Below are positions 8,956 to 33,066 of a DNA stretch of 37,739 nt, piece after piece. The position numbers and the translations under genes were made by a program. A model generated the notes under the pieces. That model ran no database searches and was not told where the DNA came from. It was given only the letters and a program-made list of their open reading frames with translations. Every line of letters begins with the position of its first letter. Within the stretch, counting starts at the first letter, position 1. The stretch comes from a virus: IMG/VR virus record IMGVR_UViG_3300038309_000096, positions 1-37,739 of that record, one strand, 5' to 3'.

Positions 8956-10364
8956 TGCAAATACCTATTCTAAATGGTATATATTCTGACTTTAATGCAA
9001 ATCTACGGATTTCGTATCCTAAGAATATGTTTCCTGTACCTAAAAATTCTGGGGTTTCTGAAGGCTATTTAAGACCAGCTTATGGGATAGTGCCCTGGAA
9101 TACTAATTGTTCAGGAATCTGTAGGGGGGCCATAAATTGGAATGGTACTCTTTACAGAGTCATGGGTGAATATCTTGTTAGGTATGATAAACTAGGAGTT
9201 GAAACAGTTATAGGAAGCGTAGGTGCAGATAATACTCCTGTAACAATGGACTACTCTTTTGATCGATTGGCTATAGCTTCAGCAAGTAAGTTTTATTATT
9301 ACGATGGAGTAACTCTTACTCAAGTCACAGATCCTGATTTAGGTATTGTCAAAGACTTCATTTGGGTTGATGGCTATTTTATGACTACAGATGGGGAGTT
9401 TCTTGTTATAACTGAACTTAATAACCCCGAGCAGGTTGACCCTTTAAAATACGGTTCTTCAGAAGTTGATCCTGATCCGATAGTTGCTATTAAAAAATTA
9501 ATAAATGAGCCTTATGCAATTAATCGTTATTCAATTGAATCTTTTGATAATGTTGGTGGCAGTGGGTTCCCGTTTAGAAGAATAGATGGTGCAAAAATCA
9601 ACCGAGGAGCTATAGGTACTCATGCATGTTGTATTTATGGTAGTGACTCCATTGCTTTTCTTGGCGGGGGTAGAAACGAGAGTACTGCTATCTGGCTCGC
9701 TGCTGGTGGCTCAAGTGCTAAATTATCTACACATGAAATTGATATAATCATTAGCCAGTATAGTGAAGAAGTATTGTCACAAGTAGAACTTGAATCTGTA
9801 TATGATAATAACCATTTATTTTTACTTATCCATTTACCTGATAAAACTTTAGTTTATGACCAATCAGCTTCTTCAACAATAGGTGAACCTGCTTGGCATA
9901 TTTTATCTTCAACTGCTTTTGGAGAAAATAAATATAGAGCACGACATTTTACTCGATACTATAATAAATGGATTGTAGGTGATACAGAAAGTAATTCCAT
10001 AGGGTATATTGACAAAAGTATAAGTACTCATTGGGGTGAGGATATAGGCTGGGAGTTTTCAACAGTTATTCTCTATAATATGAACAACTCTGCAATCTTT
10101 CATAGTCTTGAATTAACTGCTTTAACTGGCCGTTCTGAATATGGCATAAATCCTGTTATTTGGACTTCTTATTCAAAAGATGGGCTTACATGGAGCCAAG
10201 AAAGACCCATTCAAGTAGGAAAACGAGGGAACTATGATAAACGCATTATATGGTTTAATCAAGGGGTCCTTGATACTATGAGAATCCAGAAGTTCAGAGG
10301 ATTGAGTGATTCATTCCTATCAATTTTACGTCTTGAGGCTAACCTGGAGGCTTTGATTTACTAA
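8955..10364 (+). CDS. gp10-like packaged-DNA stabilisation / tail hub protein
   Basis: 469 residues, the length of P22 gp10 (472). It starts IPILNGIYSDFNANLRISYPKN and continues with repeated beta-propeller-like strands (NWNGTLYRVMGEYLVRYDKLG, FDRLAIASASKFYYYDG, FIWVDGYFMTT), characteristic of the gp10 family. The protein forms the hexameric hub under gp4 that holds tailspikes and the needle or plug. The position immediately after the adaptor gene supports the call. The gene is joined to its neighbours by single-base overlaps (TAATG), implying coupled translation. Confidence 0.9.
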   Translation: MQIPILNGIYSDFNANLRISYPKNMFPVPKNSGVSEGYLRPAYGIVPWNTNCSGICRGAINWNGTLYRVMGEYLVRYDKLGVETVIGSVGADNTPVTMDYSFDRLAIASASKFYYYDGVTLTQVTDPDLGIVKDFIWVDGYFMTTDGEFLVITELNNPEQVDPLKYGSSEVDPDPIVAIKKLINEPYAINRYSIESFDNVGGSGFPFRRIDGAKINRGAIGTHACCIYGSDSIAFLGGGRNESTAIWLAAGGSSAKLSTHEIDIIISQYSEEVLSQVELESVYDNNHLFLLIHLPDKTLVYDQSASSTIGEPAWHILSSTAFGENKYRARHFTRYYNKWIVGDTESNSIGYIDKSISTHWGEDIGWEFSTVILYNMNNSAIFHSLELTALTGRSEYGINPVIWTSYSKDGLTWSQERPIQVGKRGNYDKRIIWFNQGVLDTMRIQKFRGLSDSFLSILRLEANLEALIY

Positions 10365-11932
10365 TGGCTGAAGAGTATATTCCAAGACCATTAACACGAA
10401 AAGAGCTTGCTGAGTTTTTACCAAATATGCGTTCAATTAGGGCATTTGAACAGTTGTTTGATAATGCCTATCGACTTTCTGATATACAACGATTTTTAAC
10501 TGTTACTAATATTGATAACCCTTCTGAGCTTAATACAATTGAAGGTGGTCAAGATGGCTATTTATGTGTTGCTGTCCAAGGTAATGAATTTACATTATAT
10601 GTTTATACTTCTGAAAGATTTACAGAAAATATACCTTATACTATAAATGGACTTTCAGGATCTTGGACAGCTATAGCGGGAAAATATGTAAGCTCAGAAT
10701 CTAACATTGAAGAGATAAACACAGATGTGATAACATCGGCTCTTGGGTATATTGATAATTTAGAAAGCGATGAAGTAAAGGCTGCAATTCTTGAGGCAAT
10801 TCAGGTAAAGACCTCATATATTGATTTAGACCTAACTTATACAAATGGGCACCAAGAGGGAAGAATTCATTGGAATGCAGATGATGGTGTCCCTGAAGTT
10901 GGTATGCCTGGGGGAAATGTTATACAGCAAATAGGACTTGAACTCCTGGCCAGAGTTACTAATAAAACTGGTAGCCTTATTCCAAATGGGACCCCTGTTT
11001 ATGTTAACGGGGTTCAAGGGAACCGGCCTACTATTGATCTTGCAAAAGCTGATGCAGAGATGACCTCAGTCACTTTCCTTGGTTTAACTACTGAAGACAT
11101 AATAAATAACAATAATGGGTATGTTTGTTTGACAGGTTATGTTAGGGATATTGATACAAGTGCATTTTCTGCTGGAGATGTATTGTATATTTCTTCTACA
11201 GTTGCAGGAGGCTTAACCTCAACGAGACCTACAGCCCCTAATTGGAAGATAGGAATTGGTATATGTTTAAATGACCATGCTACTGAGGGTATTATTGGTG
11301 TCTTACCTCGTATGTGGCCGAATCTTAACAGGCTACAAGATGTGTATCTTTCATCTCTAATTGATCGAAACTTGATGGTCTACAACCTGGCTAATCAGCG
11401 TTGGGAAAACACGACTGCTTGGAAAGATATACAGTTTTCGTTAACAACTGCTAAGTTACCAGCAGTTAATGCTCCTGCATGGACAGCTTTTACAACAGCT
11501 CTTTATAAATTTACATATGCAATTGGTGACTATTCTTATCTTGCTGCAAATGAGATATCTCATAGTTATTTACAAGAGTCAGATTTTACTTTTCATTGTC
11601 ATATTTATACTAATGGTGTCGATGGGACAGATAGGACTATTGCTTTTGAGCTTATTTATGCCATAACAAATAAAAATGGTATAGCCTCTGAGACAACAGT
11701 TATTTCTCCAGATTTTACTATTCCAGCAAATACCCCAGACAGAACACATTTTTATGTTCCTATTGTGACTGTTACAGGTACTGGCTTTTTAATAGGGGCT
11801 GATATTGCTTTAAGATTTAGACGGGTCGCAGCAAGCGCTGGAACAGCACCGACGAATGACCCATTTGTAAGTATGGTAGGAATGCATATAGAACAAGACT
11901 TCCATGGAAGCCGAAACGAGACCTCAAAATGA
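10364..11932 (+). CDS. Tail protein (needle-position structural protein)
   Basis: 522 residues. Residues 1-40 form an N-terminal anchor (RPLTRKELAEFLPNMRSIRAFEQLF). Residues about 155-330 contain the phage fibre domain recognisable by HQEGRIHWNADDGVPEVGMPGG, the segment ending NGTPVYVNG, and DIDTSAFSAGDVLYISS, widespread in tail fibre and plug proteins. The C-terminal about 150 residues are beta-rich. In P22 this position carries the gp26 needle; no gp26-like trimeric coiled coil is visible, so this protein or the tailspike may take over that role. The end overlaps the cupin-SET gene by 4 bases. The family is certain only as a generic tail structural domain. Confidence 0.72.
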   Translation: MAEEYIPRPLTRKELAEFLPNMRSIRAFEQLFDNAYRLSDIQRFLTVTNIDNPSELNTIEGGQDGYLCVAVQGNEFTLYVYTSERFTENIPYTINGLSGSWTAIAGKYVSSESNIEEINTDVITSALGYIDNLESDEVKAAILEAIQVKTSYIDLDLTYTNGHQEGRIHWNADDGVPEVGMPGGNVIQQIGLELLARVTNKTGSLIPNGTPVYVNGVQGNRPTIDLAKADAEMTSVTFLGLTTEDIINNNNGYVCLTGYVRDIDTSAFSAGDVLYISSTVAGGLTSTRPTAPNWKIGIGICLNDHATEGIIGVLPRMWPNLNRLQDVYLSSLIDRNLMVYNLANQRWENTTAWKDIQFSLTTAKLPAVNAPAWTAFTTALYKFTYAIGDYSYLAANEISHSYLQESDFTFHCHIYTNGVDGTDRTIAFELIYAITNKNGIASETTVISPDFTIPANTPDRTHFYVPIVTVTGTGFLIGADIALRFRRVAASAGTAPTNDPFVSMVGMHIEQDFHGSRNETSK

Positions 11933-12774
11933 AACCTATTATTGCTAAAAATAAAGGCATTGAACAAGTTGAAGCTCATATGCTTAATATGCCTCAAGTT
12001 GATTGTCCAGTGCAACATTTCTTTGGCCCCGGCATTTATATACGACAAGTTACGCTTCCTGCAGGTATAATAGCTATAGGGCATGCACAAAAATTTGAGC
12101 AACTCAATATTATGTTAACAGGAGAAGTTGCTCTAATTGATAATGGTGAAGTTAAATTATTGAAAGCTCCCAAAGTTTTTATGGGACCTCCTGGTAAAAA
12201 AATAGGTTATATAAAAGAAACGACGGTCTGGCTCAATGTTTATGCTACAGATGAGACAGATATAGAAAAACTTGAAGATCTGCTCTTTGAAAAGAGTGAC
12301 TCTTTTAAACAAGCTGAATCAAGTAAAGAAGAGTTACAAAAGGAAGATACTGTAAGAGACAGGGAAGACTTTTTTAAACTTATTAATGACTATGGTTTTG
12401 ATTTAAATGAAGTACATAAACAAGTTATAAATGAAGAAGATCAAGTACCTCTTCCTGATCCTTGGACACCTTTTATAACTATACGAAAGTCAAATATACA
12501 TGGAAAAGGCGTGTTCTTATCGTATCCTGTTGAGGCAGAAACAATTATTGCACCAGCAAGACTTGCAGATAAAAGAACACCTGTTGGTCGGTTTACAAAT
12601 CATTCATATAAACCTAACTGTGAGTTTATAAAAGATGAGTACGGCGATATTTATATAAAAGCGTTAAAGCCAATTTCAGGGTGTCTTGGTGGGAGTCAAG
12701 GAGAAGAGCTAACAGTAAATTATAGACAAGCTTTAGCTTTATCAGGAATAATGGAGGAACTATGTCAGCAATAG
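11929..12774 (+). CDS. Cupin-SET fusion (putative protein-lysine methyltransferase)
   Basis: A 281-residue two-domain protein. Residues about 25-110 look like a cupin barrel (IYIRQVTLPAGIIAIGHAQK, EQLNIMLTGEVALID, FMGPPGKKIGY). Residues about 110-180 are a charged linker. Residues about 183-269 carry the SET signature: IRKSNIHGKGVFLSYP, then RFTNHSYKPNC (compare RFxNHSCxPN), then GEELTVNY (compare GEELTxDY). SET enzymes use AdoMet to methylate lysines. The NHS, PNC and terminal Tyr positions are kept, so activity is plausible; NHSC reads NHSY and DY reads NY. It lies between tail and ejection genes with overlaps on both sides, so it is expressed with virion proteins and may be packaged or modify them. 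The substrate is unknown. Confidence 0.8.
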   Translation: MKPIIAKNKGIEQVEAHMLNMPQVDCPVQHFFGPGIYIRQVTLPAGIIAIGHAQKFEQLNIMLTGEVALIDNGEVKLLKAPKVFMGPPGKKIGYIKETTVWLNVYATDETDIEKLEDLLFEKSDSFKQAESSKEELQKEDTVRDREDFFKLINDYGFDLNEVHKQVINEEDQVPLPDPWTPFITIRKSNIHGKGVFLSYPVEAETIIAPARLADKRTPVGRFTNHSYKPNCEFIKDEYGDIYIKALKPISGCLGGSQGEELTVNYRQALALSGIMEELCQQ

Positions 12775-13466
12775 CTACAGCAATAGTTGGTGGGGCTGTT
12801 ATAGGTGGTACTGCTGCTTATCTTGGCCAAAAAGAAGCTGGGTCAAGCGCAGAAAAAGCACAAACTCGAGGAGCTAATATTGCTGCAGAAGCTGAGCTCG
12901 AAGCGACAGAAATGTCTATTGAAGAACAGCGTAGGCAGTTTGATGAGATACGGACTTTACTTCAACCCTATGTATCAGCTGGAGAGACCTCACTTACTCA
13001 AATGCTCAACCTTACTGGGATGGGTGGTGACCAGGCTCAACGAGCAGCTATTGCAGGACTTGAAGGATCTCCACAGTTTGAGGCATTAACAAAATCAGGT
13101 GAAGAGGCTATATTGCAAAATGCTTCAGCGACTGGTGGGCTAAGAGGCGGTAATATACAGTCTGCCCTTGCTGAGTTTCGCCCTTCTATCTTAAGTCAGC
13201 TTATTGAAAATCAGTATAGTAAACTTAGAGACATTACAGGTATCGGGCAAGCCTCTGCTGCAGGTGTAGGAGCAGCTGGCCAGGCGACTGCTGGGAACAT
13301 TTCAAATCTTATGCAATCAATGGGTGCTTCTCAAGCAGCTAGAGCAATGAATGTTGGTAATGCACAAGCTCAGAATGCTTTACTTCAAGGCCAGGCATTT
13401 TCTAATGCAATATCAGGTATAACAGGATCGATTCCTCTTGGTATATATGCAGCTAAAAAGTTCTAA
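12762..13466 (+). CDS. Ejection protein, P22 gp7-like (DNA transfer protein)
   Basis: A 234-residue, Ala/Gly/Gln-rich protein beginning with a hydrophobic glycine-rich segment (AIATAIVGGAVIGGTAAYLG), followed by a helix with EEQRRQFDEIRTLLQPYVSAGETSLTQM. This pattern is characteristic of the gp7/p32-type DNA transfer proteins of P22-like phages (P22 gp7 has 229 residues). Such proteins are packaged in the head and ejected into the envelope before the DNA. It is the first of three consecutive ejection genes. The ribosome site AATGGAGGAAC precedes the ATG, which lies inside the end of the SET gene. Confidence 0.86.
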   Translation: MSAIATAIVGGAVIGGTAAYLGQKEAGSSAEKAQTRGANIAAEAELEATEMSIEEQRRQFDEIRTLLQPYVSAGETSLTQMLNLTGMGGDQAQRAAIAGLEGSPQFEALTKSGEEAILQNASATGGLRGGNIQSALAEFRPSILSQLIENQYSKLRDITGIGQASAAGVGAAGQATAGNISNLMQSMGASQAARAMNVGNAQAQNALLQGQAFSNAISGITGSIPLGIYAAKKF

Positions 13467-20459: not shown

Positions 20460-20912
20460 TTATTTATCATCCCAGAATGAAGAAGCATATAAAGTAAGCT
20501 GTCTCACTTTAACCCCAGCTTCTTTAAGCATCAATTTAGCCTCTGTCTGAGATTCTATCCAAGTTCTTAAGTTACTCTCTTCTGCATAGACAACTTCTGC
20601 TATTTGTTTTTGAATGATTGCAGCTGCACATTGAGCACAAGGGCAAAATGGATAAACGTACATTATCATTCCGGCTAAATTTACATTACTATTAAGTATC
20701 GTATTTAACTCAGCATGTAATGACCTTAAGGTTTTCTCATTCTGTGATAGACCTTCGTCTTTTACATTTCTTGGTGGACCATTATAGCCTATACTTATCT
20801 GTCTGTTAAAAGAATCAACTATAACAGCGCCAACTTTATGTTTAGGATCCTTACTCCAAGTAGAAACAAGCTTAGCTTGGTCCATAAATCGTTTATCCCA
20901 TTTACTTGCCAT
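20460..20912 (-). CDS. dCMP deaminase
   Basis: A 150-residue zinc deaminase of the cytidine/deoxycytidylate group. Zinc ligands and the proton shuttle are visible as LHAELN (His-Ala-Glu) and FCPCAQC (PCxxC). SIGYNGPPRNV is the family's substrate-side loop. The enzyme converts dCMP to dUMP, which the ThyX of this genome can methylate. GGAGG lies 6 bases before the ATG. The start overlaps the end of the helicase gene by 11 bases. This is the last gene of the leftward arm. Confidence 0.93.
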   Translation of the reverse strand: MASKWDKRFMDQAKLVSTWSKDPKHKVGAVIVDSFNRQISIGYNGPPRNVKDEGLSQNEKTLRSLHAELNTILNSNVNLAGMIMYVYPFCPCAQCAAAIIQKQIAEVVYAEESNLRTWIESQTEAKLMLKEAGVKVRQLTLYASSFWDDK

Positions 20913-22281
20913 CCAAGTCCTCCATTGTTCTCTTTCTTAAGTATTCTAAAAGTCTTCTTTGAGTCATATCCTTTGCATTTAAAGCTTGGTATACTGTTTC
21001 ATCAATAGTATTCTTTATAATTAAATGCTGAATGAGTACATGGTCCATCTGGCCAGGTCTATGTAGTCTTTTATTTGTTTGAAGATAATCATCTAGACTC
21101 CATGGAAGGGCGAACCATACTATTACACTTCCTCCTTTCTGCATATTTAGCCCACGACCTACCGACCGTGGGTGCGCAATTAATAATGGTAGCTCTTTAT
21201 TATTCCATTGTTTAAGGTATCTATTTCTATCTGAGGCCTTTGTCGCCCCAGTTATGAATGGGGTGCCTGGAAATGCCTTTTGTAGTAAGTCGATTTCAAA
21301 TTTGAATTGAATAAGGCACAGAACATTTCGTCCGTAAAGACTCTCAAGTAGATCTTTGAGGGCACGGACTTTAGTATCATGAATGAAGTGTGTCGTTCGT
21401 GTACCGTCATCATGATTTTCATAGATGGATCCTTGAACAAACTGTCGAAGCTTGGAGCTAAGAGACGCCGTATTGAGACTGCTAACCGAGGCATTTTCCA
21501 AAAGCAGTATGAAATCTTTTTTAAAGGATTTATACTGTGCTCTCTCTTTAGGTTGAAGATCCAGCCTAATTGTATTGATGACTCGTTCAGGAAGCTGAAT
21601 GTGGTCTTCGGATGACAGCCTAAATGTTTTACCAGAAATAGCTTTATGAATTGCTGTCTCTGTTCCAAAGCGTGCATTCCAATCGTATTTACGATATGGA
21701 TCTTTTGTGAAGTACTTATCTCTGAAGGAATTGAAATTGTCACCGAGGGACTCTCCTTTATCTATAATATAATATTGTGACCAAAGGTCTAAAAGTGAAT
21801 TAGGCGATGGGGTACCACTTAATAGTGCAATGTATTTGAATAAATCTCGCATTGCACATAAAAGGCCAAATCTATTTGAAGTATTGGATTTAACAAAAGT
21901 AGACTCATCTAAGACAAGTACTTTATATGGAATAGGCTTCTTGGCTCTATGAAGGTCATATAATTTTTTATAAAGCCAAGGAAGCCCATCGTAATTTATA
22001 ATATGCACTTGCTTAGAAAAGTCTAACTTTTTATTATTCCCGTGTAGAGCCTGAAAACTTAACTCTGCCTGAAGATCCCAGTCATAAATTTCATCTGGCC
22101 AGGTGTTCTCCATTACAGTTAAAGGCGCTATAATTAAAGTAGGTAAATTTAACTGGTTTATTGTATGTAATACTATAGCAGTTTTCCCTAAACCCATATC
22201 AATGGCAAAGTATACTTTCTTGTTCTTAAGCCAGTATTCTATTGCTTTTTCTTGGTATGGACGAAGTTGTTTAGCTTTCAT
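20902..22281 (-). CDS. SNF2-family DNA helicase / translocase
   Basis: A 459-residue two-RecA-domain superfamily 2 ATPase. Motif Q/I is LRPYQEKAI ... DMGLGKTAIV (Walker A about residues 29-34), motif II is LVLDES, motif III is ALLSGTPSPN, and motif VI is QTNKRLHRPGQ near residue 410. The compact length is typical of phage SNF2 proteins. It probably remodels or translocates on DNA during replication or repair beside polymerase, ligase and nuclease. The CTGGCCAG copies at 21049 and 22095 lie in this gene; one encodes the conserved RPGQ of motif VI. No good ribosome site is present, so it is likely coupled to the upstream zinc-ribbon gene. Confidence 0.92.
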   Translation of the reverse strand: MKAKQLRPYQEKAIEYWLKNKKVYFAIDMGLGKTAIVLHTINQLNLPTLIIAPLTVMENTWPDEIYDWDLQAELSFQALHGNNKKLDFSKQVHIINYDGLPWLYKKLYDLHRAKKPIPYKVLVLDESTFVKSNTSNRFGLLCAMRDLFKYIALLSGTPSPNSLLDLWSQYYIIDKGESLGDNFNSFRDKYFTKDPYRKYDWNARFGTETAIHKAISGKTFRLSSEDHIQLPERVINTIRLDLQPKERAQYKSFKKDFILLLENASVSSLNTASLSSKLRQFVQGSIYENHDDGTRTTHFIHDTKVRALKDLLESLYGRNVLCLIQFKFEIDLLQKAFPGTPFITGATKASDRNRYLKQWNNKELPLLIAHPRSVGRGLNMQKGGSVIVWFALPWSLDDYLQTNKRLHRPGQMDHVLIQHLIIKNTIDETVYQALNAKDMTQRRLLEYLRKRTMEDLDGK

Positions 22282-22516
22282 AACATTGCCATATTAGGTT
22301 TTCATAGCATTCACTATGTATTGAATAATCTACCATTGGATTGGGTGGGCCTTGGCAAGATTGTTGACAGTCTTCACAAACTGGAAGACCACAGTCTTCA
22401 CAGATTCCATAGTCATCATTAAGAATAAACTTACCACACTGACCACACTGACAATTTGGACAGTACTCAGTTTCTTCATAGATGACTATATCACATTTAG
22501 GGCATACATTTATCAT
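22271..22516 (-). CDS. Cys-rich zinc-ribbon protein, function unknown
   Basis: 81 residues with 13 Cys arranged as CxxC pairs (VCPKCD, YCPNCQCGQCG, ICEDCG, VCEDCQQSC, then SECYEN and QCYES). At least two zinc-binding modules are likely. AAAGGAG lies 4 bases before the ATG. It sits between ligase and SNF2 helicase, so a DNA-associated role is possible. No family beyond zinc ribbon is recognised. Confidence 0.75.
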   Translation of the reverse strand: MINVCPKCDIVIYEETEYCPNCQCGQCGKFILNDDYGICEDCGLPVCEDCQQSCQGPPNPMVDYSIHSECYENLIWQCYES

Positions 22517-22525
22517 ATAGCTCCT

Positions 22526-23338
22526 TTATAGATCCCATCTGAAAGCTTTAAATCGAGGCTGAATAGGCTTACCATATTTACTATAAGCCTTAAACTCAAT
22601 GACAATCTGTTCACCAAGAAAATTCAACTTATTGTCATAAACTTTTTGCCGCCACTCATCTGTCTGACCTTTAAAGATACCTACATCAAAATAGGTATCC
22701 TTCCCACCAATGGTAGCTTTACATGACATTCTACCCATTGAATGTTCATACTTTTTTCCTTTTGTCCCAGGAAGAATGTCAATAACTATCGCTTCAATAG
22801 ACTTAAGAGGTACAAGTTTCATCCAGTCCCAAGTACGTTTTCCAGGTTGGTAAATATGATTTGGAGAGATCCAACATATACCTTCTTCACCTTTTCGAAG
22901 TGCTTCTTTATAAAAGGCATCTACTTCTCGCGGAGAACTTGTATAAATCATAGATTCAAGTTTTACAAATTTACTGTTAAAGAACCCGGCGTTTTTAAAA
23001 CTTATAAGTAGCCCATACCGATCTGAGAACTTTAACTCGGGATAGACACAATTGAAAATAGAAAAAACTGCAGTAGGTGTACTATTACCACTTCTAATAG
23101 CACCTGATGCAGTTTCAAAGTCTTCTCCTGGTATGGTTACTTCACCAACAACTGGAAAAGGAATATCTTCAATTACTTTCTTGATATGATCAAGACCTAC
23201 AATTTCTCGTGGAGTTCTTGAATAAAACATATTAAGAAACGGATCATATATGGCATGAATACCATTACGTTTTACCGAAACATACCCAGGTCTAAACTTA
23301 GACCATTTAAAAGTTTCTAACTTTTCCGCTTTTATCAT
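22526..23338 (-). CDS. ATP-dependent DNA ligase (T7-like, compact)
   Basis: A 270-residue nucleotidyltransferase-OB ligase. Motif I reads VKRNGIH (residues 22-28), where the usual form is KxDGxR: Lys23 is kept but Asp and Arg are replaced by Asn and His. Motif III is GEVTIPGEDF, motif IV EEGICWISP and motif V WDWMKLVP. The C-terminal OB part includes VEAIVIDILPG-like and VIEFKAYSKYGKPIQPRF segments. It seals nicks in replicated DNA. The 5' end overlaps the VRR-NUC gene by 32 bases. The catalytic Lys suggests an active enzyme despite the variant motif. Confidence 0.88.
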   Translation of the reverse strand: MIKAEKLETFKWSKFRPGYVSVKRNGIHAIYDPFLNMFYSRTPREIVGLDHIKKVIEDIPFPVVGEVTIPGEDFETASGAIRSGNSTPTAVFSIFNCVYPELKFSDRYGLLISFKNAGFFNSKFVKLESMIYTSSPREVDAFYKEALRKGEEGICWISPNHIYQPGKRTWDWMKLVPLKSIEAIVIDILPGTKGKKYEHSMGRMSCKATIGGKDTYFDVGIFKGQTDEWRQKVYDNKLNFLGEQIVIEFKAYSKYGKPIQPRFKAFRWDL

Positions 23339-23654
23339 TTTCTTTTACCTTTTGTATAAATTGTTTAATTCCTTCTAAACCATAAACTACAAAATGGTTT
23401 AATCCAAGACTTGTAATAAACTTTTGAAACTCAATTTGTAAAGGCGAAAGTTTTCCTGATTTTCGTTTAACTTCTACAAACCACATCTGGCCAGGATAAA
23501 CTACAATTCTATCTGAAACTCCACGATTCATTTCAGAGACAAACTTGAAAGCTTTCCCACCAGATAAGCGTACGGCTTTAACAAATTCTGCTTCAACACC
23601 AGCTTTACCAATTTCTTTCTTCTCTTTTTGTTTATATGGGTTTAATTCAAACAT
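23307..23654 (-). CDS. VRR-NUC domain nuclease
   Basis: A 115-residue single-domain nuclease of the PD-(D/E)XK superfamily. The core is MNRGVSDRIVVYPGQMWFVEVKRKSGKLSPLQ: Asp in GVSDR and Glu-x-Lys in VEVKR are the metal-binding residues, and the following SPLQIEFQKF helix is typical of VRR-NUC. Such stand-alone domains act as structure-specific nucleases in phage replication modules. The start overlaps the stop of the preceding gene (TAATG). Confidence 0.92.
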   Translation of the reverse strand: MFELNPYKQKEKKEIGKAGVEAEFVKAVRLSGGKAFKFVSEMNRGVSDRIVVYPGQMWFVEVKRKSGKLSPLQIEFQKFITSLGLNHFVVYGLEGIKQFIQKVKENDKSGKVRNF

Positions 23655-23902
23655 TATTGATAGCTCACGTTTATTGTTTGACCTGAAAGCTTTTCAAGTT
23701 CCTTAAGCTCACGTATAGCTCGCAACTTATTATACCGTGTACGAGCTCTATCAATATACTGTGCACGATTGGAATGTTGGATTTCCCAAAGAATATACTC
23801 TCTAATAATATCTTCATCTTCTTCATTTCTAAGCCATTCAATAAATACTTTCCAAGATGAAGAGTCATTAGAAAAGTTAATCTTTTTTGTACCGTCTACC
23901 AT
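23654..23902 (-). CDS. Small helical protein next to the polymerase, unknown function
   Basis: 82 residues with an excellent AGGAGG site 5 bases before the ATG. The start lies 26 bases inside the polymerase gene, so translation is likely coupled. The sequence is charged and helical (VFIEWLRNEEDEDIIREYILWEIQ, then a basic RTRYNKLRAIRELKELEK helix). No family is recognised. The position suggests a replication accessory or adaptor role. Confidence 0.72.
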   Translation of the reverse strand: MVDGTKKINFSNDSSSWKVFIEWLRNEEDEDIIREYILWEIQHSNRAQYIDRARTRYNKLRAIRELKELEKLSGQTINVSYQ

Positions 23903-25826
23903 AATAGCCTCCTGCTTTAAGCGGAATAGTTTCTGCCCACTTAGGTTTTTCTTCTACAAGTTTAATATACCGTTCAAGTCTTTCTTTTGGAAAGTCTTCA
24001 GAGCTGATAGAAACAAGTTCATCATGAACAGTCATAAGAGGTATAAAATCTTTACTCCTACTTACTGTAAGAATACTATAACCCATAAGATCTCGGGCAA
24101 GTTTTTGAATTATATTTTCTGTAATACGGCCAGGTGAAAGAAATCTATGAGTCCATTTATAATTGTGTAGGCCCATATGCTTTAACTCATGACCATACTT
24201 TCCTTCAGTTACTTCAGGAGAGTGGTAAAAAAGTTTTGTTCCTGAGGGTAAAGTAATTATAAGCCAACTTGTACCTTGTTTATCTTTGAGGCTTATAAAT
24301 GTGCACTTGTTTACATTAAACTCATGACCTGGGTTCAAGCAAGAAGCAATACAAGCTCTGAATACATTATCCCATAGCTTAGCAATAGGTGCGTACTTTT
24401 GACGATAACCTTTAACTGCTTTAACTGCAAGGTCTTGAGAAATATTTACACCAAACCGAGCACAGGTTTCTTTAAACTTGGGAGGGCCCATTTGGTAACC
24501 ACAGCCAAGGATAACTTGTTTGCCCATAAAGTACTCAAGATTGTCGATGGCATGCTTATCAATCTCTTCATACTTTTTATTATAGAGAAAGGCAGCCATG
24601 TCAATATAAGCACTTTTATCATCTTCAAAACGCTGCAGCATTTCATACATATCTGTAATCCAGATAAGTAAAAGGTACTCAATACTTGAATAATCAGCTT
24701 GGTATAACATCTGGCCAGTGGGTGCCTGAATTACAGAGCGGCACAAAGCTCGAGCTGCATGTATTGGATTCTCAATTTCTTCAAAGTTAAGGAACCTTTG
24801 AAGAAGTTCTTCAGGATCAGCTACTGTAGCCTTTGGTAAAGAATGGATTTGGTACCCTGCGCCAGCCCACCGTTGAGTGTTAGTCGCTCCATAACGAAGA
24901 AAGTCATGAACTTTATTACCAACTCTCATGTCTAAAAGCTTATCAAACTTTGCAACAGAGGAAGCTCCTGCAGCTTGGCGCGCTTCAATAAGAGTACGAC
25001 AGTCAGTAGGAAGGAACTGCTTGTAATCGTCATCATCAATAAGCTTTTCAAGAGTATCTGCTGTTATATCTTTTACTTTAACTCCTCTTGAAATAAGGTA
25101 ATCTTTAATTCGCTTAGTCTGTGTTGGCTTAGTAATAAGGCCTCCAGTTAAGTCAGGAAGCATATCACAGATAACTTCTTTATACTCGTCACAGCGGACT
25201 TTAATACTTTCAACAGCCTCATATTGAATAGGAAGGCCTCTTTGATTCATACGAAATGTCTCACGCCAGAGCTCCCATTCATCATTTGAAACTTTCATAG
25301 AAGGACAAGCCTTGAGAACTTCAAATGATGCATCAATATCTGTTTTGTTGTATTCAAAAAGATTGTTATAATCTTCTTGAGTAGGTTGGATCGAGTTCTT
25401 TTTACAGCATCGTTTTATATAAAGGTTCCCAGCTGGATTCTTTTTAATAGGTGTATTTAACACTTGGGCAGCGCCTTCAAGATTCTGTGGAAGTGAAAAC
25501 TTTGATAGTACAACTTGAATATCCTTCCAGCGATTAATTGTACCAGGAATTATAATCTGGCTAGTGTTGACTGTACTTGGGGCTGTTACACCAAGAAAAT
25601 CAAAAGTGGCATTAAGAGCCCAGATATAATCATAGTTACAAAGATTAAGCTCTACAGGATTCTGAAAGGTCCAAAGTTGAGTAGGAGCGTTTTCCATTGT
25701 TACGGGGTCAAACGCTTTGAAAGCCAAAGAAAGAATTTTGAATGAAGGGTGCTGAGTATATTTTGTAACTCCAACAGTTGGGAGATCTAAATCACAATAA
25801 GTCTCAATATCAAGTAAAAGATCCAT
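23877..25826 (-). CDS. Family A DNA polymerase with 3'-5' exonuclease
   Basis: 649 residues. The exonuclease domain has motif I DIET (Asp6, Glu8), motif II NATFD (about 72-76) and motif III YNKTDIDASFE (about 159-169). The polymerase domain has TNTQRWAG (about 315-322), motif A QADYSSIEYLL (Asp378, Glu383), motif B GKQVILGCGYQMG (Lys436, Tyr444) and motif C TVHDELV (His601, Asp602, Glu603). No 5' nuclease is present. The conserved Arg that normally follows motif A's Glu is replaced (IEYLL instead of IELR or IEAR), and the Arg four residues before the motif B Lys is Tyr. GGAG is 8 bases before the ATG. It is the replicative polymerase of the phage. Confidence 0.95.
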   Translation of the reverse strand: MDLLLDIETYCDLDLPTVGVTKYTQHPSFKILSLAFKAFDPVTMENAPTQLWTFQNPVELNLCNYDYIWALNATFDFLGVTAPSTVNTSQIIIPGTINRWKDIQVVLSKFSLPQNLEGAAQVLNTPIKKNPAGNLYIKRCCKKNSIQPTQEDYNNLFEYNKTDIDASFEVLKACPSMKVSNDEWELWRETFRMNQRGLPIQYEAVESIKVRCDEYKEVICDMLPDLTGGLITKPTQTKRIKDYLISRGVKVKDITADTLEKLIDDDDYKQFLPTDCRTLIEARQAAGASSVAKFDKLLDMRVGNKVHDFLRYGATNTQRWAGAGYQIHSLPKATVADPEELLQRFLNFEEIENPIHAARALCRSVIQAPTGQMLYQADYSSIEYLLLIWITDMYEMLQRFEDDKSAYIDMAAFLYNKKYEEIDKHAIDNLEYFMGKQVILGCGYQMGPPKFKETCARFGVNISQDLAVKAVKGYRQKYAPIAKLWDNVFRACIASCLNPGHEFNVNKCTFISLKDKQGTSWLIITLPSGTKLFYHSPEVTEGKYGHELKHMGLHNYKWTHRFLSPGRITENIIQKLARDLMGYSILTVSRSKDFIPLMTVHDELVSISSEDFPKERLERYIKLVEEKPKWAETIPLKAGGYYGRRYKKD

Positions 25827-25832
25827 ACTATT

Positions 25833-25927
25833 GTCTCCAAATTTAAGTTTTAAGAAGATAATAAGAGTAGGCCTTAATATAGGCCTACTCTTAAAATTAA
25901 ATCTCTTTAAATCTCCATTTTGGAGAC
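25833..25927 (-). terminator. Nested inverted repeats between the SSB-like and polymerase genes
   Basis: An outer pair GTCTCCAAA (25833-25841) / TTTGGAGAC (25919-25927) encloses a perfect 13-bp stem, TAAGAGTAGGCCT (25862-25874) with 25881-25893, loop TAATAT read on the plus strand. In the leftward transcript the inner stem is followed by AU-rich UUAUUAUCUU, which could act as a weak terminator or attenuator, reducing polymerase mRNA relative to the SSB-like gene. The outer arms belong to the same family as 20356-20449 and 37470-37555. Confidence 0.65.
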
Positions 25928-25928
25928 C

Positions 25929-26486
25929 TTAAAAGGCGTCAGTTTCATCTTCATTCTTTTCAGGTGCAAGACTTGCAAAAGCATCCTGAGCAGACTGTCG
26001 ACCATCAAGGCGATCACCGTCTTCCACAAACATGATATTGGACAGGCCCCAACCGATACCTTTGTTTCCGCTATTGTCATAGGGGTACGGTTTGACCTCG
26101 ATGTTAACATAGCAACCAGAATAAATTTTGTCTGCATCCATAACAGGACGGAGATTTTCATCTACGACTCCGGGCTTACCGTATTTGGGGTCCATTGAGG
26201 CATTGAAAAAATAAATACCCTGATAACACTTGTCTGTGAGATCACCACTTTCAAACTCAGCATCACCATCACGAAGAGGCTCGTAGCGGAACTTAGGCTT
26301 CTTACCGCCCCACATAGATTCCATGCCTTTTTTGATGGCTTTATCTATGCCATCCTGAGCCCTTTTCAGGTTTTCTTTATCATCTTTCTCAATATGGACC
26401 TGGCATGAATATTTCAGGTCTCCACTGAGATTTTCTGCTGGTTCTACAACATGAACAAAAGATACACGTACATTTTCAAGAATCAT
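25929..26486 (-). CDS. DUF2815 single-stranded-DNA-binding-like protein
   Basis: A 185-residue protein of the DUF2815 (SSB-like OB-fold) family. The segments ENVRVSFVHVVEP at the start, KYSCQVHIEKDD, FNASMDPKYGKPGVVDENLRPV and YSGCYVNIEVKPYPYDN with GIGWGLSNIMFVEDG are characteristic. The C-terminus is acidic (APEKNEDETDAF), as in SSBs that recruit partners by an acidic tail. Codon choice is richer in G and C than in the surrounding genes, consistent with high expression. It accompanies DUF2800 and polymerase in many phage replication modules. Confidence 0.9.
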   Translation of the reverse strand: MILENVRVSFVHVVEPAENLSGDLKYSCQVHIEKDDKENLKRAQDGIDKAIKKGMESMWGGKKPKFRYEPLRDGDAEFESGDLTDKCYQGIYFFNASMDPKYGKPGVVDENLRPVMDADKIYSGCYVNIEVKPYPYDNSGNKGIGWGLSNIMFVEDGDRLDGRQSAQDAFASLAPEKNEDETDAF

Positions 26487-26842
26487 TGCTTTCTTTCCTT
26501 TCGGCCGTAGCCTTCATTATTTATCCTATTTTCTATCTTGGCCAAAGTTTTATCCATTGCTTCCTCAAGGCTAATGGAAGGTTCAAGTATGATAAAAAGC
26601 ACAATGGCGAAAACAATCACATCGCATACTTCAAAAGCTGCCTTATTACGATCTAATTGTTGCTCAAAAATGTTTATCCATGGTCTCCATGGAGTCTCAT
26701 CAAGAGCTTCCATAGCTTCTTTGACAAGGGAAAGGGTTATATCTCGATAATAGTCCATTCGTTCTTCAACAGACTGATTTATCTTTTTAATATAACCCAT
26801 TTTACTTTGTAGTTGAAAAATCTTATCTACGAGATTTTGCAT
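26483..26842 (-). CDS. MazG/dUTPase-2-like NTP pyrophosphatase
   Basis: A 119-residue all-alpha protein. The metal-binding pattern is visible as LVKEAMEALDETPWRPW and, one helix later, EVCDVIVFAIVL (ExxD). The C-terminal AKIENRINNEGYG matches the KxxxNxxR-type end seen in this superfamily. Family enzymes hydrolyse nucleoside triphosphates to monophosphates; next to ThyX and with a dCMP deaminase in the same arm, dUTP to dUMP is a likely reaction. The ATG overlaps the ThyX 3' end by 16 bases, with AAGGGA upstream. Confidence 0.8.
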   Translation of the reverse strand: MQNLVDKIFQLQSKMGYIKKINQSVEERMDYYRDITLSLVKEAMEALDETPWRPWINIFEQQLDRNKAAFEVCDVIVFAIVLFIILEPSISLEEAMDKTLAKIENRINNEGYGRKERKQ

Positions 26843-27513
26843 GACATTTTCCCTTGATTACAAATTGGGCTGTGCCCACTTCCATTCATTTTACAAGGCT
26901 TCTCAATATTGCTAAAGATCTCAGGAAGCCAGTCCATACATACGAACCAAAGTTTACCTGCAAAAATTTGCATTTCAAGAGTATTACGACGACAGAGTCG
27001 AACTCTAAGAAACTCTGACAAAGCACGAGGATTCGCAGTGATAACAAGATTTACTGCGCAAGCATTAGGAAGAACTTGTCGTGCTTCTTCAGGCTTTTCA
27101 CCAAGAGCAATAAGATCAATATACCGTTGAAGTGCATCATCAAGAGTTTGCTGGTACACAGCACCAATCTTTTCATTTTTATCCCAGCCAGGTCTTACAA
27201 CCATAGGATATTCACGGTAATCTTGATAATGCTGTGAAGCTGAGGTAAAACTGAAATGCCGTTGACGTGTCACCTGGGCAAGAAGAGACCTTGAAATGCC
27301 ACTGGCCAGGAATGTAATAGACGCGTGTTCAAAGATTGAGGTATGCTCTGCTTTGATAAGATATTTAGCTAATCCTGGGCCAAGTTGTTTGCTTCCAATA
27401 GCATTCAGGTTCAGCTTTTTCTGTGTCACATCACAGGCAGTCTGCATTGCTCGTGATGAGTTTGATTGCTGGAGTACTTTAATACTGATGTTGTCATATG
27501 TTTGTATTTGCAT
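26827..27513 (-). CDS. thyX: Flavin-dependent thymidylate synthase
   Basis: A 228-residue ThyX that converts dUMP to dTMP with FAD, NADPH and methylene-tetrahydrofolate. The signature (usually RHR-x7-S) is RQRHFSFTSAS (residues 83-93), so the His of RHR is Gln. SIFEHASITF (about 59-68) and the C-terminal dUMP-contact Arg segment RVRLCRRNTLEMQ are typical. The C-terminal about 30 residues contain extra Cys (KPCKMNGSGHSPICNQGKMSC). GAGG lies 6 bases before the ATG. The gene groups with other nucleotide genes. Confidence 0.93.
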   Translation of the reverse strand: MQIQTYDNISIKVLQQSNSSRAMQTACDVTQKKLNLNAIGSKQLGPGLAKYLIKAEHTSIFEHASITFLASGISRSLLAQVTRQRHFSFTSASQHYQDYREYPMVVRPGWDKNEKIGAVYQQTLDDALQRYIDLIALGEKPEEARQVLPNACAVNLVITANPRALSEFLRVRLCRRNTLEMQIFAGKLWFVCMDWLPEIFSNIEKPCKMNGSGHSPICNQGKMSCKIS

Positions 27514-27775
27514 AAGGCCTCTTATTGATTGCTTGTTCTGTTAGCGTTGCATAGCCTGCAATATCGTGCCAATGATCAGCTTCCATTGGGTCACCTATAG
27601 CAATTCTTGAAAGCTTCATACAAATACGATCAAGAGCTTCATTAATATAATCAGGTCTTGAATCAGCTTGTTTATATAAAGTTCTTTTTAATTGCTGTGC
27701 AATTGCAGCCCCTTCTTCCCAGGAGCCATGAGTGCTCTCACGGCTCTTAATTGTTTCATGAATTGACTTATCCAT
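27494..27775 (-). CDS. Small conserved phage protein (DUF6378-like)
   Basis: A 93-residue helical protein. The segments ESTHGSWEEGAAIAQQLK and INEALDRICMKLSRIAIGDPMEADHWHDIAGYATLTEQ are the pattern of a widespread phage family (DUF6378-like) often found near nucleotide-metabolism genes. The GDPxxxDHWxDIAGYA motif suggests a conserved polar site, but no reaction is established to my knowledge. The start overlaps the preceding stop (TAATG). Confidence 0.75.
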   Translation of the reverse strand: MDKSIHETIKSRESTHGSWEEGAAIAQQLKRTLYKQADSRPDYINEALDRICMKLSRIAIGDPMEADHWHDIAGYATLTEQAINKRPYANTNI

Positions 27776-28161
27776 TATTCAGCAAGCTCCTTTGAAGGTT
27801 TAGAATTAAAAGCTTCAAGCAAGTCTTTCATTGTGGGGTCACTTTTTGCAGCGAGTTCAAATTGCTGCAAAATATTAACGCGTTCAAGCCGTTGTTTCAT
27901 TTGTTTGAGAATAAATTGCTTTCGTTTGAGCTCATCAAGCTTATCCTCAAAGGTTTTAATATCAATTTTGCATACAACCCATTTTACTGCCTTACTCTCT
28001 TCACAGAAAAGGGTTGTAACTTTTGCAGTTTTGTACCCATAAGTAGAGTCAACAACAACAATGTCACCTACAGCAATTTCAGGAATATCAGTAAGATAAG
28101 CATACTCCTTGTGATTATGTTCATTTTGTCCAATAAACTGAACTCCGATAGTGTTAAACAT
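27775..28161 (-). CDS. Conserved phage protein with N-terminal beta barrel, function unknown
   Basis: 128 residues. The N-terminal half (GVQFIGQNEHNHKEYAYLTD, EIAVGDIVVVDSTYGYKTAKVT) looks like a small SH3- or PriA-like beta barrel; the VGDxVVVDS..G...KV pattern recurs in phage replication modules. The C-terminal half is a charged coiled coil (LDELKRKQFILKQMKQRLERV). AAAGGAGA stands 5 bases before the ATG, just after the terminator of the upstream winged-helix gene. No function can be assigned. Confidence 0.72.
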   Translation of the reverse strand: MFNTIGVQFIGQNEHNHKEYAYLTDIPEIAVGDIVVVDSTYGYKTAKVTTLFCEESKAVKWVVCKIDIKTFEDKLDELKRKQFILKQMKQRLERVNILQQFELAAKSDPTMKDLLEAFNSKPSKELAE

Positions 28162-28199
28162 AGAGTCTCCTTTAAACGTGTATTGTGTGATAAGATTAA

Positions 28200-28232
28200 A
28201 ATTAAAGCGGTAATACGCTTACCGCTTTAATT
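28200..28232 (-). terminator. Intrinsic terminator after the 193-residue winged-helix gene
   Basis: A perfect 14-bp stem (28200-28213 with 28219-28232; core AAAGCGGTAA / TTACCGCTTT) has a 5-base loop. On the leftward transcript it is followed by UUUUAAUCUU. It lies 6 bases past the stop of the 28239-28820 gene and ahead of the next gene, so some read-through must feed the replication operon. Confidence 0.82.
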
Positions 28233-28238
28233 GCTAAA

Positions 28239-28820
28239 TTAACTGTTAATCTTTTCTTCCAGGTTATCCCGTTCGAGTTCAGTGATCCGTAGCTCAATGG
28301 ATGCTTTCTGGGCACGGAGCTGAAGAATCTCATTACTCGGATAGTCCAGAGCTTTACCTTGAGCAGACTCATTGGTGGTAGTCAGCTTTTCGATACGTTT
28401 TTTCAAGGCTTCGAGCTGCTCTTCTGGACTTTTCTTGGGAGCCCGTTTTGCTTTTACCTTGGAAGCTTTCTCGGCTTTGATTGCTTCCCATTCTTCAGGA
28501 GAAACCAGGCGATAAGTCATAACAGTAACTTCGTTACCCTCTTCGTCGGTTTCGGTAACCGGGACATCTTTAACCGGGCAGTACCCCATCAAACGCAGCA
28601 TTGAGAAGATACTCATAACAGAAGCATATTTGCAATCAGCAGCTTCAGTCAGAGTTTCCATTGTTGCACCACCAGCCTGGATGGTTTCAATAATGATATC
28701 ACGTTTGGTTTTTTCGGGTGCACTGGCTCCTTCAGTCATGGCATTTTCTTCTTCAGTCATAGCATCTTCAATCATGGTGTTCTCCTCTTCAATGTTTTCG
28801 GTTTTCTTTTTACGAGCCAT
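28239..28820 (-). CDS. Winged-helix DNA-binding protein with coiled-coil C-terminus
   Basis: A 193-residue protein. An acidic N-terminus (about 1-35) precedes a helix-turn-helix region (TKRDIIIETIQAGGATMETLTEAADCKYASVMSIFSMLR, about 38-76) and a beta wing (VTETDEEGNEVTVMTYRLVS). A basic linker (KASKVKAKRAPKKSPEE) leads to a C-terminal coiled coil. It resembles the 99-residue protein at 36796-37095 over the helix-turn-helix, and the two appear paralogous. It has its own promoter (28857-28885), AGGAGA 8 bases before the ATG, a strong terminator and GC-rich codons. These mark it as an abundant, separately controlled product, possibly a nucleoid-type protein or transcription regulator. Confidence 0.78.
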   Translation of the reverse strand: MARKKKTENIEEENTMIEDAMTEEENAMTEGASAPEKTKRDIIIETIQAGGATMETLTEAADCKYASVMSIFSMLRLMGYCPVKDVPVTETDEEGNEVTVMTYRLVSPEEWEAIKAEKASKVKAKRAPKKSPEEQLEALKKRIEKLTTTNESAQGKALDYPSNEILQLRAQKASIELRITELERDNLEEKINS

Positions 28821-28856
28821 TTTAAGTCTCCTATACTTAATGTTAAAGTTAAATTT

Positions 28857-28885
28857 ATCTTATAATAAAAAATCTAATTTGTAAA
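28857..28885 (-). promoter_or_regulatory. Leftward sigma70-like promoter for the 193-residue winged-helix gene
   Basis: On the minus strand: TTTACA (28885-28880), 17 bp, TAAGAT (28862-28857). The expected transcription start is near 28850, giving a leader of about 30 bases with AGGAGA. An A-rich run (minus strand, 28887-28908) directly upstream could act as an UP element. Confidence 0.68.
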
Positions 28886-28921
28886 CCTTTTTTTCTTTTT
28901 TTTTATTATGTAGTTTACCTC

Positions 28922-30064
28922 CTAATCTCTATCTACTAAATGAGAGAATACCGAACTTGCAGAAATACCATCTGTATAATCTGGTCTAGGATCATCAGCA
29001 CTTACAATAGTAGGCTTACCTAAAGGTTTAATTATAAGCTTTTGGAACTCTGGGTCTTTCTTAAGACCTTTGACTGCTTTTTCCATTTGAGCTGGCGATT
29101 TTAAAGAAGGTGTTTCATAAATATCTTCAATATCACCATAGTTTTCACACAAATAATTAACTACTTGTTCTTCAGAGATATAAGATCTTGTGCTTCTTCC
29201 AGCAACTCTTTTTAAATTAAGCTCAGCCAATTGATCAGAGTTAAGCCTTTGAAATTCATCTTTTATAGCCTTAAAAAACTTTTTAAACAAAGGCTCCATT
29301 GCCAAAGCTTTTGACATTTGTTTGAATGAAATTTCATTCTTTTTCATTATATCATTTGTCTTAAAAACTACAGCAGCATGATTACGAATATACTCTTCAT
29401 ACTCAGCACATCTTGTTTTACCACGGCACCAAAAGCATTGAATTTCACCTGCAATGATATCATAGCTTTTGATAGCATTCTTGATTGCATTAAGCAATCC
29501 AATAAGTTCTTCAGTTGGGCATTGATATGAAGAATAATAATCAAATCGAGGCTGAGCAAGATGAATCCAGAGCTCTTTATATTTTTGCAAAGCTTCAATA
29601 TTTTCTGCCGCACCAAGAAGGTAAGTCATAAGTTGTTCATTCTTATTTACATAAACAGGAACGCCTTTACCAAACTTCCAGTCAACAATATGTATAGTCC
29701 TTTTCCCACTCCCTCCAATAACATCTGCAGTTCCACCTGAGTCTTCAATACCATAGCCTTTAAGGTCAACTTGACGCTCAGTTTGAACCCAGGTTATATT
29801 ATGTTTATCCTGAAGTTCAAGAAGCCAGGCATAGCAGTCTTCAATACACCCTTTCTGTTCAGCATCCAACTGGTCAGTGATGGGCTCTCCTTGAATATAG
29901 TTTTCCATTTCTTTGTGGAGCATTGTGCCTTCATCTGCTTCTGTTGTGGTTTCATCAGCAGGTATTTTACTCTTTTGAATAAGGTACTGAATAAAGTCTT
30001 CACTACCTGGGCATCGTATTAATCTATTGATTTTTGATGCGCTATACTTTGCATGCTTTGCCAT
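28922..30064 (-). CDS. DUF2800 Cas4-like PD-(D/E)XK nuclease
   Basis: A 380-residue protein of the DUF2800 family. The opening KYSASKINRLIRCPGSEDF and DEGTMLHKEMENYI are typical of Cas4/AddB-type nucleases. The catalytic core is GGTADVIGG ... IHIVDWKFGKG (Asp, then Asp-x-Lys). Four Cys fit a Cas4-type iron-sulfur cluster: one in LIRCPGS near residue 18 and three in CFWCRGKTRC. It probably processes DNA ends in recombination or replication together with the DUF2815 protein. A TAATG overlap couples it to the preceding gene, and AAAGGAG precedes the ATG. Confidence 0.9.
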   Translation of the reverse strand: MAKHAKYSASKINRLIRCPGSEDFIQYLIQKSKIPADETTTEADEGTMLHKEMENYIQGEPITDQLDAEQKGCIEDCYAWLLELQDKHNITWVQTERQVDLKGYGIEDSGGTADVIGGSGKRTIHIVDWKFGKGVPVYVNKNEQLMTYLLGAAENIEALQKYKELWIHLAQPRFDYYSSYQCPTEELIGLLNAIKNAIKSYDIIAGEIQCFWCRGKTRCAEYEEYIRNHAAVVFKTNDIMKKNEISFKQMSKALAMEPLFKKFFKAIKDEFQRLNSDQLAELNLKRVAGRSTRSYISEEQVVNYLCENYGDIEDIYETPSLKSPAQMEKAVKGLKKDPEFQKLIIKPLGKPTIVSADDPRPDYTDGISASSVFSHLVDRD

Positions 30065-30249
30065 TAATTCTCCTTTCTTGGGTTTCTTTTATAGTAGTCA
30101 CAAGTATCACATAAACCATCAGGATGTGATACCGATACAAAATACCAAGTGTAAAAGTTTTCAGATTTAACTTTTACACTTGGTTTATTTTTTAGTACTT
30201 TCCTACGAACAGGTTTACCACATTTACAAGTTACTTTATATTCTTCCAT
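30064..30249 (-). CDS. Small four-Cys zinc-finger protein
   Basis: 61 residues with two Cys pairs, TCKCGKPVRRK (CxC) and LCDTCDYYKR (CxxC), and many Lys/Arg: a likely zinc-binding nucleic-acid protein. GAGG lies 6 bases before the ATG. It is coupled to DUF2800 by TAATG and overlaps the previous gene by 19 bases. No family is recognised. Confidence 0.65.
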   Translation of the reverse strand: MEEYKVTCKCGKPVRRKVLKNKPSVKVKSENFYTWYFVSVSHPDGLCDTCDYYKRNPRKEN

Positions 30250-30611
30250 CGTTTACCTCGTTTAATTTCTGATATGCCTACTGGGTCATAGTTATATCGT
30301 TTAGCTAAGATACATCTTGGCTCTTTACTTGCTCTTATTTCACGAATTTGTGTTATTGTAAGTTTAGGTTTCTTACAACCACCATGAGACTCTAAAGGTA
30401 CTCCCATTCGTTGTAATTGCTTTCTTATACCTGTAATTGATATATCAAAGAAATTTGCTAACTCAGTTGATGTAGTACCTCCTATATACTCTTTATGGAT
30501 ACATTCATAATAGAAATGGTATAAAGTTCCATTTTGAGTATTATACTTTTGAAGTAACTCTCGCTTTTCTTCCATATAAGCTGTATGATATTCGAATTTC
30601 TTATAATTCAT
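30231..30611 (-). CDS. DNA-binding protein with two helix-turn-helix-like segments
   Basis: 126 residues. One helix-turn-helix lies at TSTELANFFDISITGIRKQLQRMGVP (about 49-74). A second unit ends in the motif PVGISEIKRGKRWKNIK, the short DNA-binding tail (I...I..G..WK.I) often found at the end of homing endonucleases and related phage proteins. No HNH or GIY-YIG nuclease core remains, so it may be a stand-alone regulator or a relic of a homing enzyme. It overlaps both neighbours. Confidence 0.72.
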   Translation of the reverse strand: MNYKKFEYHTAYMEEKRELLQKYNTQNGTLYHFYYECIHKEYIGGTTSTELANFFDISITGIRKQLQRMGVPLESHGGCKKPKLTITQIREIRASKEPRCILAKRYNYDPVGISEIKRGKRWKNIK

Positions 30612-31003
30612 TTACAAACCAACTTTGTTTTAGTTACTTCTTCTTTATAATATTCTAACTCACAAGTCTGCAAAGTAGAATAATAAACTTCTATTCTAAC
30701 CAAAAGGCTAAGGTATTTTGCTAAAATATCCATAGATTGTACATCAGGATAATGATGGACGTCAATATTTGTTAAATTAAGAAGCTCATCAAAATCTTCT
30801 ACTAACTGCCAGATAATATAGTTTAACGGTCTTGTTTCCGTCTTATCTGGCCAGTAAGTAAATGTAGCTTGTCCTGTCCCAGAGCATTTTAAATTGTGCT
30901 CTCTACAATATTGCGCTGTTTTTCTTTTCACCTCTTGGATAAGATACCAATTATTAACTTTTTGCTTATTGTTTTTTAAAACTTGTTTAAGCTCTTTATT
31001 CAT
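30608..31003 (-). CDS. Hypothetical protein
   Basis: 131 residues from the ATG at 31003, which follows AAGGTG by 8 bases and overlaps the previous stop as ATGA; an in-frame GTG at 31012 has no ribosome site. A basic helical start (KELKQVLKNNKQKVNNWYLIQEVKRKTAQYC) is followed by FTYWPDKTETRPLNYIIWQL and an acidic helix-rich end. No family or catalytic motif is recognised. One CTGGCCAG copy (30847) encodes the Trp-Pro-Asp. Confidence 0.68.
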   Translation of the reverse strand: MNKELKQVLKNNKQKVNNWYLIQEVKRKTAQYCREHNLKCSGTGQATFTYWPDKTETRPLNYIIWQLVEDFDELLNLTNIDVHHYPDVQSMDILAKYLSLLVRIEVYYSTLQTCELEYYKEEVTKTKLVCK

Positions 31004-32986: not shown

Positions 32987-33029
32987 AGTCCCTCCAAATA
33001 GAAAATTAATATTTATTAATCATGGATTA

Positions 33030-33058: not shown

Positions 33059-33066
33059 TAATTATT

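Follow-up and report, generated by a model that had tools for sequence, protein, structure and literature searches.

Why would a P22-like podovirus keep, among the genes for its virion, a gene that joins a cupin barrel to a SET lysine methyltransferase-like domain, and what might the product modify? The question was raised by an IMG/VR record of 37,739 bases, all of which was analyzed here and is termed the window; the fusion, its domains, and its neighbors had been predicted from the letters of the sequence. We examined the locus, the two domains and their conserved residues, and the distribution of the fusion and of each of its parts in other phages.

The fusion gene and its neighbors

The virion genes of the window that are relevant here are as follows.

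1073: terminase
2702: portal
5700: P22-type coat
8023: P22 tail accessory factor gp4
8955: gp10-like head closure
10364-11932, plus strand: 522-aa gene in the tail-needle position, placed after the gp10-like gene
11929-12774, plus strand: cupin-SET fusion gene, 281 aa, ATG start (open reading frame, Pfam SET, PHROG 34170, AlphaFold2 model)
12762-13466, plus strand: gp7-like DNA ejection protein gene (Pfam P22_gp7, PHROG 598)
After the gp7-like gene at 12762: two large genes at the places of gp20 and gp16

The fusion gene is a real open reading frame with the strand, start, and length listed above, and its product matches PHROG 34170 over residues 8-275 (E 5.1e-81). As originally claimed, it is overlapped on both sides, having 4 nt in common with the upstream gene and 13 nt with the downstream gene. 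The latter was likewise correctly recognized as gp7-like, with matches to Pfam P22_gp7 (E 2.9e-13) and to PHROG 598, “DNA ejection” (E 2.1e-36). The upstream gene had been described as a tail gene; it does lie in the needle position, but it matched none of the P22 tail-needle (gene 26) profiles of Pfam and PHROG, so the label is positional. Relatives of this 522-aa gene differ widely in length from phage to phage. Given that the gene order of P22 is 10, 26, 14, 7, 20, 16, the fusion gene occupies the place of P22 gene 14.

Elsewhere in the window, the minus strand carries a replication block (20460-35583) that encodes a dCMP deaminase-like protein, a SNF2-like helicase, an ATP-dependent DNA ligase, and a family A DNA polymerase, together with an Enc34-type ssDNA-binding protein, ThyX, a DUF2800 nuclease, and a VapE-like primase/helicase.

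Domains and conserved residues of the fusion protein

The protein is divided as follows; residue conservation refers to 84 non-identical full-length homologs.

11986-12276, plus strand: cupin barrel, residues about 20-116 (PHROG 12032 and 24280, model strands, cupin fold matches)
12277-12453, plus strand: helical linker, residues about 117-175 (helices 124-140, 142-154, and 159-167 in the model)
12454-12732, plus strand: SET domain, residues about 176-268 (Pfam SET, fold matches to MLL1 SET and vSET 3kma)
12496-12516, plus strand: cofactor motif IHGKGVF, residues 190-196 (G192 and G194 invariant, 84/84)
12589-12618, plus strand: RFTNHSYKPN, cofactor and active site, residues 221-230 (N224, H225, and P229 invariant, 84/84)
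12700-12723, plus strand: GEELTVNY with the predicted catalytic Tyr265, residues 258-265 (E260, T262, and Y265 invariant, 84/84)

Multiple lines of evidence support the SET assignment. The Pfam SET profile (PF00856) scored 31.4 bits on the fusion protein against a cut-off of 22.4 and was matched by 49 of 49 representative homologs; the motifs on which the original prediction rested, i.e., IHGKGVF, RFTNHSYKPNC (221-231), and GEELTVNY, are all present. An AlphaFold2 model computed from 49 sequences, i.e., that of the window and environmental ones, reached a mean pLDDT of 91.9 and a pTM of 0.86 and contains the SET fold. Residues 175-266 of the model superposed on the MLL1 SET domain with its cofactor product (Z 12.8, rmsd 1.5, 81 residues), a superposition that spans NHS and ELTVNY and includes the crossing C-terminal segment of the SET fold. 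Structures containing EZH2 (about Z 12) and the PBCV-1 protein vSET (3kma; Z 11.0, rmsd 2.5, 82 residues) were also matched. In sequence searches of the PDB, the family profile recovered MLL1 (E 1e-8) and vSET (1n3j, E 1e-4), whereas phmmer with the single fusion protein gave chance-level matches only; the family profile was thus needed for this detection.

Conservation was assessed in homologs retrieved with patterns that included RTxxGR(Y/F)xN and a motif from the cupin, the 80 most similar sequences being kept. In addition to the residues listed above, R216, T217, and G220 are invariant (84/84), with the conservation at 216-224 being partly selected for because the retrieval patterns contain those residues; H225, P229, E260, T262, and Y265 are absent from the patterns. 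N230 is kept in 82 of the 84. Hence the NH, Pro, and Tyr residues central to the original prediction have not been lost in any homolog. From the sequence, we take GxG, NH...PN, and GEELTxxY to be SET motifs and Y265 to be the catalytic Tyr position of SET enzymes. Position 233, which is presumably equivalent to a SET7/9 active-site Tyr, is Phe or Met in most family members. The SET domain is very short, with no SET-I insert recognizable in it, and a family-specific GCxGG loop (251-255) precedes its last motif. The linker is less conserved overall, yet D147 and D171 are near-invariant.

Median dN/dS values, which are rough because they come from 175 pairs of 75-98% identity with dS near 1, were 0.023 for the cupin, 0.054 for the linker, and 0.078 for the SET domain. 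Both the cupin and the SET domain are therefore kept by purifying selection. Judged by its sequence, the SET part of the fusion is a predicted lysine methyltransferase domain with apparently intact cofactor and catalytic residues.

The N-terminal cupin was also borne out, through the matches to PHROG 12032 and 24280 and a double-stranded beta-helix fold in the model, although no Pfam cupin profile matched the window protein itself. The cupin part of the model aligned with HP0902 (Z 10.2, rmsd 2.6, 85 residues) and PpnP (Z 10.2), and a Foldseek search matched it to 4e2g (E 1.7e-5). A complete cupin metal motif would consist of three His plus Glu, or of HxD/E...H; the corresponding positions in the window protein are H52, Q54, and Q58, with no His at position 92. 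Of the family, 96% keep H52 and many have H58, but the second-motif His is absent at position 92 from all 84 homologs. This incomplete motif makes an adaptor role more likely for the cupin than a catalytic one.

Distribution of the fusion and partners of its cupin

The full fusion occurs in named or cultured phages, i.e., Rhodoferax phage P26218, Pseudoalteromonas phage PH1, phage zth2-2, and Manatee Spring podoviruses, and PHROG 34170, a family listed under “unknown function,” corresponds to it. A scan of IMG/VR yielded at least 579 stretches confirmed by tblastn, which may include cupin-only relatives; all 80 of the best 80 are fusions. Bacterial genome collections gave seven matches, six of them fusions, with one located within a 368-kb Paraburkholderia contig, which points to prophages. 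A DNA-pattern scan using the SET domain alone found nothing. The original prediction had proposed looking for the same fusion beside gp10/gp7 genes in other podoviruses; of 91 fusions, 88 are followed immediately by a gp7-like gene, the remaining three being two contigs that end too early and zth2-2, where a gp7-like gene went undetected.

Versions of the cupin that lack SET are widespread as proteins of 129-181 aa, under database names such as “short tail fiber” or “tail fiber adhesin.” A cupin-only gene directly precedes a gp7-like gene in Vibrio phages VvAW1, 41E34.2, and 1.067.O and in Thalassomonas phage BA3; in Sphaerotilus phage R1, which is T7-like, the gene that directly follows it is T7_gp14 (PF24072). 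The cupin therefore accounts for the position of the fusion gene: its SET-free homologs fill the slot before gp7-like or T7 gp14-like genes in both P22-like and T7-like phages. Other partners of the cupin were located as follows.

L131:4602-5441 and L147:4515-5381, environmental viruses: cupin N-terminus fused to a gp13-family domain
L005:5477-6396, BPP-1 bbp24-bbp23: GNAT gene overlapping the cupin gene
L212:2552-3462, Manatee Spring podovirus MW202722: GNAT gene overlapping the cupin gene

The domain fused to the cupin in the two environmental viruses is of the same kind as T7 gp13, an “internal virion protein,” and matches PHROG 4177 in both and also PHROG 308 in L131. Its relatives are annotated as putative acetyltransferases. 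A model of the domain (pLDDT 79.8, built from only 4 sequences) matched GNAT acetyltransferases throughout its top 50, among them ribosomal-protein and N-terminal acetyltransferases; on the basis of this model, T7 gp13 itself may be a protein of acetyltransferase fold. In a further record (L165), the end of a PHROG 308 gene lies close to where the cupin gene starts, and in BPP-1 and MW202722 the GNAT acetyltransferase gene and the cupin gene share 4 nt. Together, the cupin-only slot genes and the gp13-related and GNAT partners indicate that the cupin belongs with the internal-virion or ejection cluster, and its SET, gp13-related GNAT-fold, and GNAT neighbors indicate that it has repeatedly been coupled to protein-modifying folds.

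We considered and rejected a plain exchange of GNAT for SET in this slot. PF00583 occurs in both sets of records (3 of the 51 with the fusion and 6 of the 54 with the cupin only), and zth2-2 (L013:5929-7578) carries the cupin-SET fusion plus a GNAT gene a few hundred bases downstream, which argues that the two are not simple substitutes. PF11090 was found in 2 of 54 cupin-only records and in 0 of 51 fusion records, a count that has no positive control of its own.

In the cupin tree, SET fusions fall at two places: a main group, and PH1 with L099 and L100 inside the SET-free Vibrio-type cupins (SH-aLRT 99). In the SET-domain tree, the PH1-type domains are nested in the main SET group. Both trees rest on short alignments with long branches and are suggestive only; their simplest reading is that a second cupin lineage may have acquired the SET domain, or that the Vibrio-type cupins may have lost it.

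SET domains were also seen in other settings in phages. The T4-like cyanophage P-RSM6 has a free-standing 99-aa SET gene (L102:3977-4276; PHROG 28741, unknown function) immediately upstream of genes for a gp25-like protein and a baseplate wedge. Its free-standing relative in P-SSM7 lies beside nrdB, and Pelagibacter phage Kolga likewise has a free-standing SET gene. In three records (L009-L011), SET domains are attached to other proteins, one being a functionally uncharacterized phage protein of 583 aa with a C-terminal SET domain like that of PHROG 28741 (L009:3546-5297).

Possible roles of the fusion and comparison with known systems

Computation shows that the fusion is real and has the folds of a SET domain and a cupin, that its cofactor and catalytic residues are conserved, that it is under purifying selection, and that its place before gp7 is nearly constant. 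The explanation we tentatively favor, while giving it somewhat less than an even chance, is that the protein is an active lysine methyltransferase, docked through its cupin, that acts on ejection or portal proteins of the virion during assembly. A virion-morphogenesis cupin, i.e., a conserved part native to the podovirus ejection-protein cluster, would have gained a minimal SET domain that works as a lysine methyltransferase. By docking, as is probable, on the ejection/portal complex, the cupin would place the SET domain for its target; in the producing cell, the SET domain with AdoMet would then yield methylated lysines on ejection or portal-vertex proteins. We infer catalysis, docking, substrate, and timing: the conserved residues suggest a working methyltransferase, and the position among virion genes suggests late expression and association with the ejection module. 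Coat and tail, the virion targets named in the original prediction, are not specially favored because the neighbors and fusion partners of the cupin point to the ejection-protein cluster. Some observations count against this explanation. Our analysis of conserved lysines found none in gp7 and several in gp20, gp10, and coat that point to no particular substrate, such that no candidate stands out, and the SET domain lacks a recognizable SET-I insert. The occurrence of the same cupin in many phages without SET also implies that methylation is not essential to the slot.

By analogy with PBCV-1 vSET, the SET protein might instead be packaged with the virion, ejected, and methylate a host protein early. 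This is less probable than assembly-time methylation but a serious possibility, and its more specific form, in which the phage would inject the methyltransferase with the ejection proteins via the cupin adaptor and modify host proteins at the start of infection, is less probable again. PBCV-1 encodes and packages its minimal SET enzyme, which trimethylates K27 of algal histone H3, with circumstantial evidence for inhibition of host transcription (PMC7019647); the family profile and the fold of the fusion both match vSET, and its gene adjoins ejection genes. In P22, the ejection proteins gp7, gp16, and gp20 exit the virion; DNA delivery requires them, whereas particle assembly does not (PMC4992974). 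On the other hand, the sequence points to no host substrate, and the cupin-only and gp13-related slot genes resemble assembly factors, T7 gp13 being listed in Pfam as a “probable scaffold protein” and the annotation of P22 gp14 being head morphogenesis. Methylation of a host protein in the cell late in infection, for example of a ribosomal or transcription protein, independent of the virion and with the cupin giving oligomerization only, would fit the SET genes that stand alone and away from virion genes in P-SSM7 and Kolga; it is improbable in light of how constantly the family keeps gp7 beside the fusion and of the cupin’s own tie to the ejection cluster.

Slightly more doubtful is a SET domain that no longer catalyzes and would serve as a structural or docking module, binding AdoMet or a peptide. 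The shortness of the domain, its missing SET-I insert, and the Phe or Met at position 233 would agree with this, but vSET is likewise minimal and yet active (PMC7019647). Moreover, Tyr265 and the NH pair are invariant in all 84 homologs, and drift would be expected to break such residues. The original prediction had also envisaged a demethylase-like cupin, i.e., a metal-dependent oxygenase that would reverse or partner the SET reaction. JmjC demethylases do have a cupin-type barrel, and H52 and H58 recur in the family; nevertheless, we rejected this proposal as very improbable indeed given the incomplete metal motif, with Q54 and Q58 in the window and never a His at 92, and given that the cupin is widespread without SET.

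Parts of this picture were already known. Phage proteins have been annotated as “SET domain containing protein” (uncultured Caudovirales) or given a PBCV-1-methyltransferase-like name (MW202744), and the fusion was listed as a PHROG without function. Our literature search found no paper on a cupin-SET fusion, on SET in phage virions or cyanophages, or on Bbp23, and no proteomics of any fusion member. What is new is the family-wide invariant active site, the nearly constant adjacency to gp7, and the finding that one ejection-slot cupin has modifying-enzyme partners of two kinds. Lysine methylation by phage enzymes has hardly been explored, and the slot gene before the ejection proteins (T7 gp13, P22 gp14) has no clear molecular role in the literature we found. 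A putative methyltransferase and GNAT-fold partners tied to this slot suggest that post-translational modification may belong to ejection-complex assembly or early takeover. Since the cultured phages P26218 and PH1 carry the fusion, these ideas are directly testable.

The close counterparts among known proteins include other members of PHROG 34170, such as PH1 gp49 and Rhodoferax P26218_30, which share the full-length fusion and the place before a gp7-like gene and are 31-44% identical to the window protein; the only database remark on P26218_30 is a similarity to a putative tail fiber protein. Members of PHROG 12032 and 24280 (BPP-1 Bbp23, Vibrio phage VvAW1) have the same cupin in the same neighborhood but without SET, and their tail-fiber name, an annotation for which we found no experimental source, is not supported by a position inside the ejection cluster. 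T7 gp13 (PF11090, PHROG 308) and P22 gp14 (PF11039) occupy the same slot, immediately before the gene of the smallest ejection protein, and have no sequence relation to the cupin or SET; a gp13-related domain, of predicted GNAT fold, is fused to the cupin in L131 and L147. Like vSET (A612L) of PBCV-1, the window protein has a minimal viral SET domain with shared cofactor and catalytic motifs (Z 11.0, profile E 1e-4), here in a new architecture and place. Whereas vSET is a stand-alone protein of a eukaryotic virus (a chlorovirus) with a histone substrate, the present SET domain is fused to a cupin and encoded in a podovirus ejection cluster. Were it injected, a bacterial virus would have its own version of the strategy that PBCV-1 follows with vSET.
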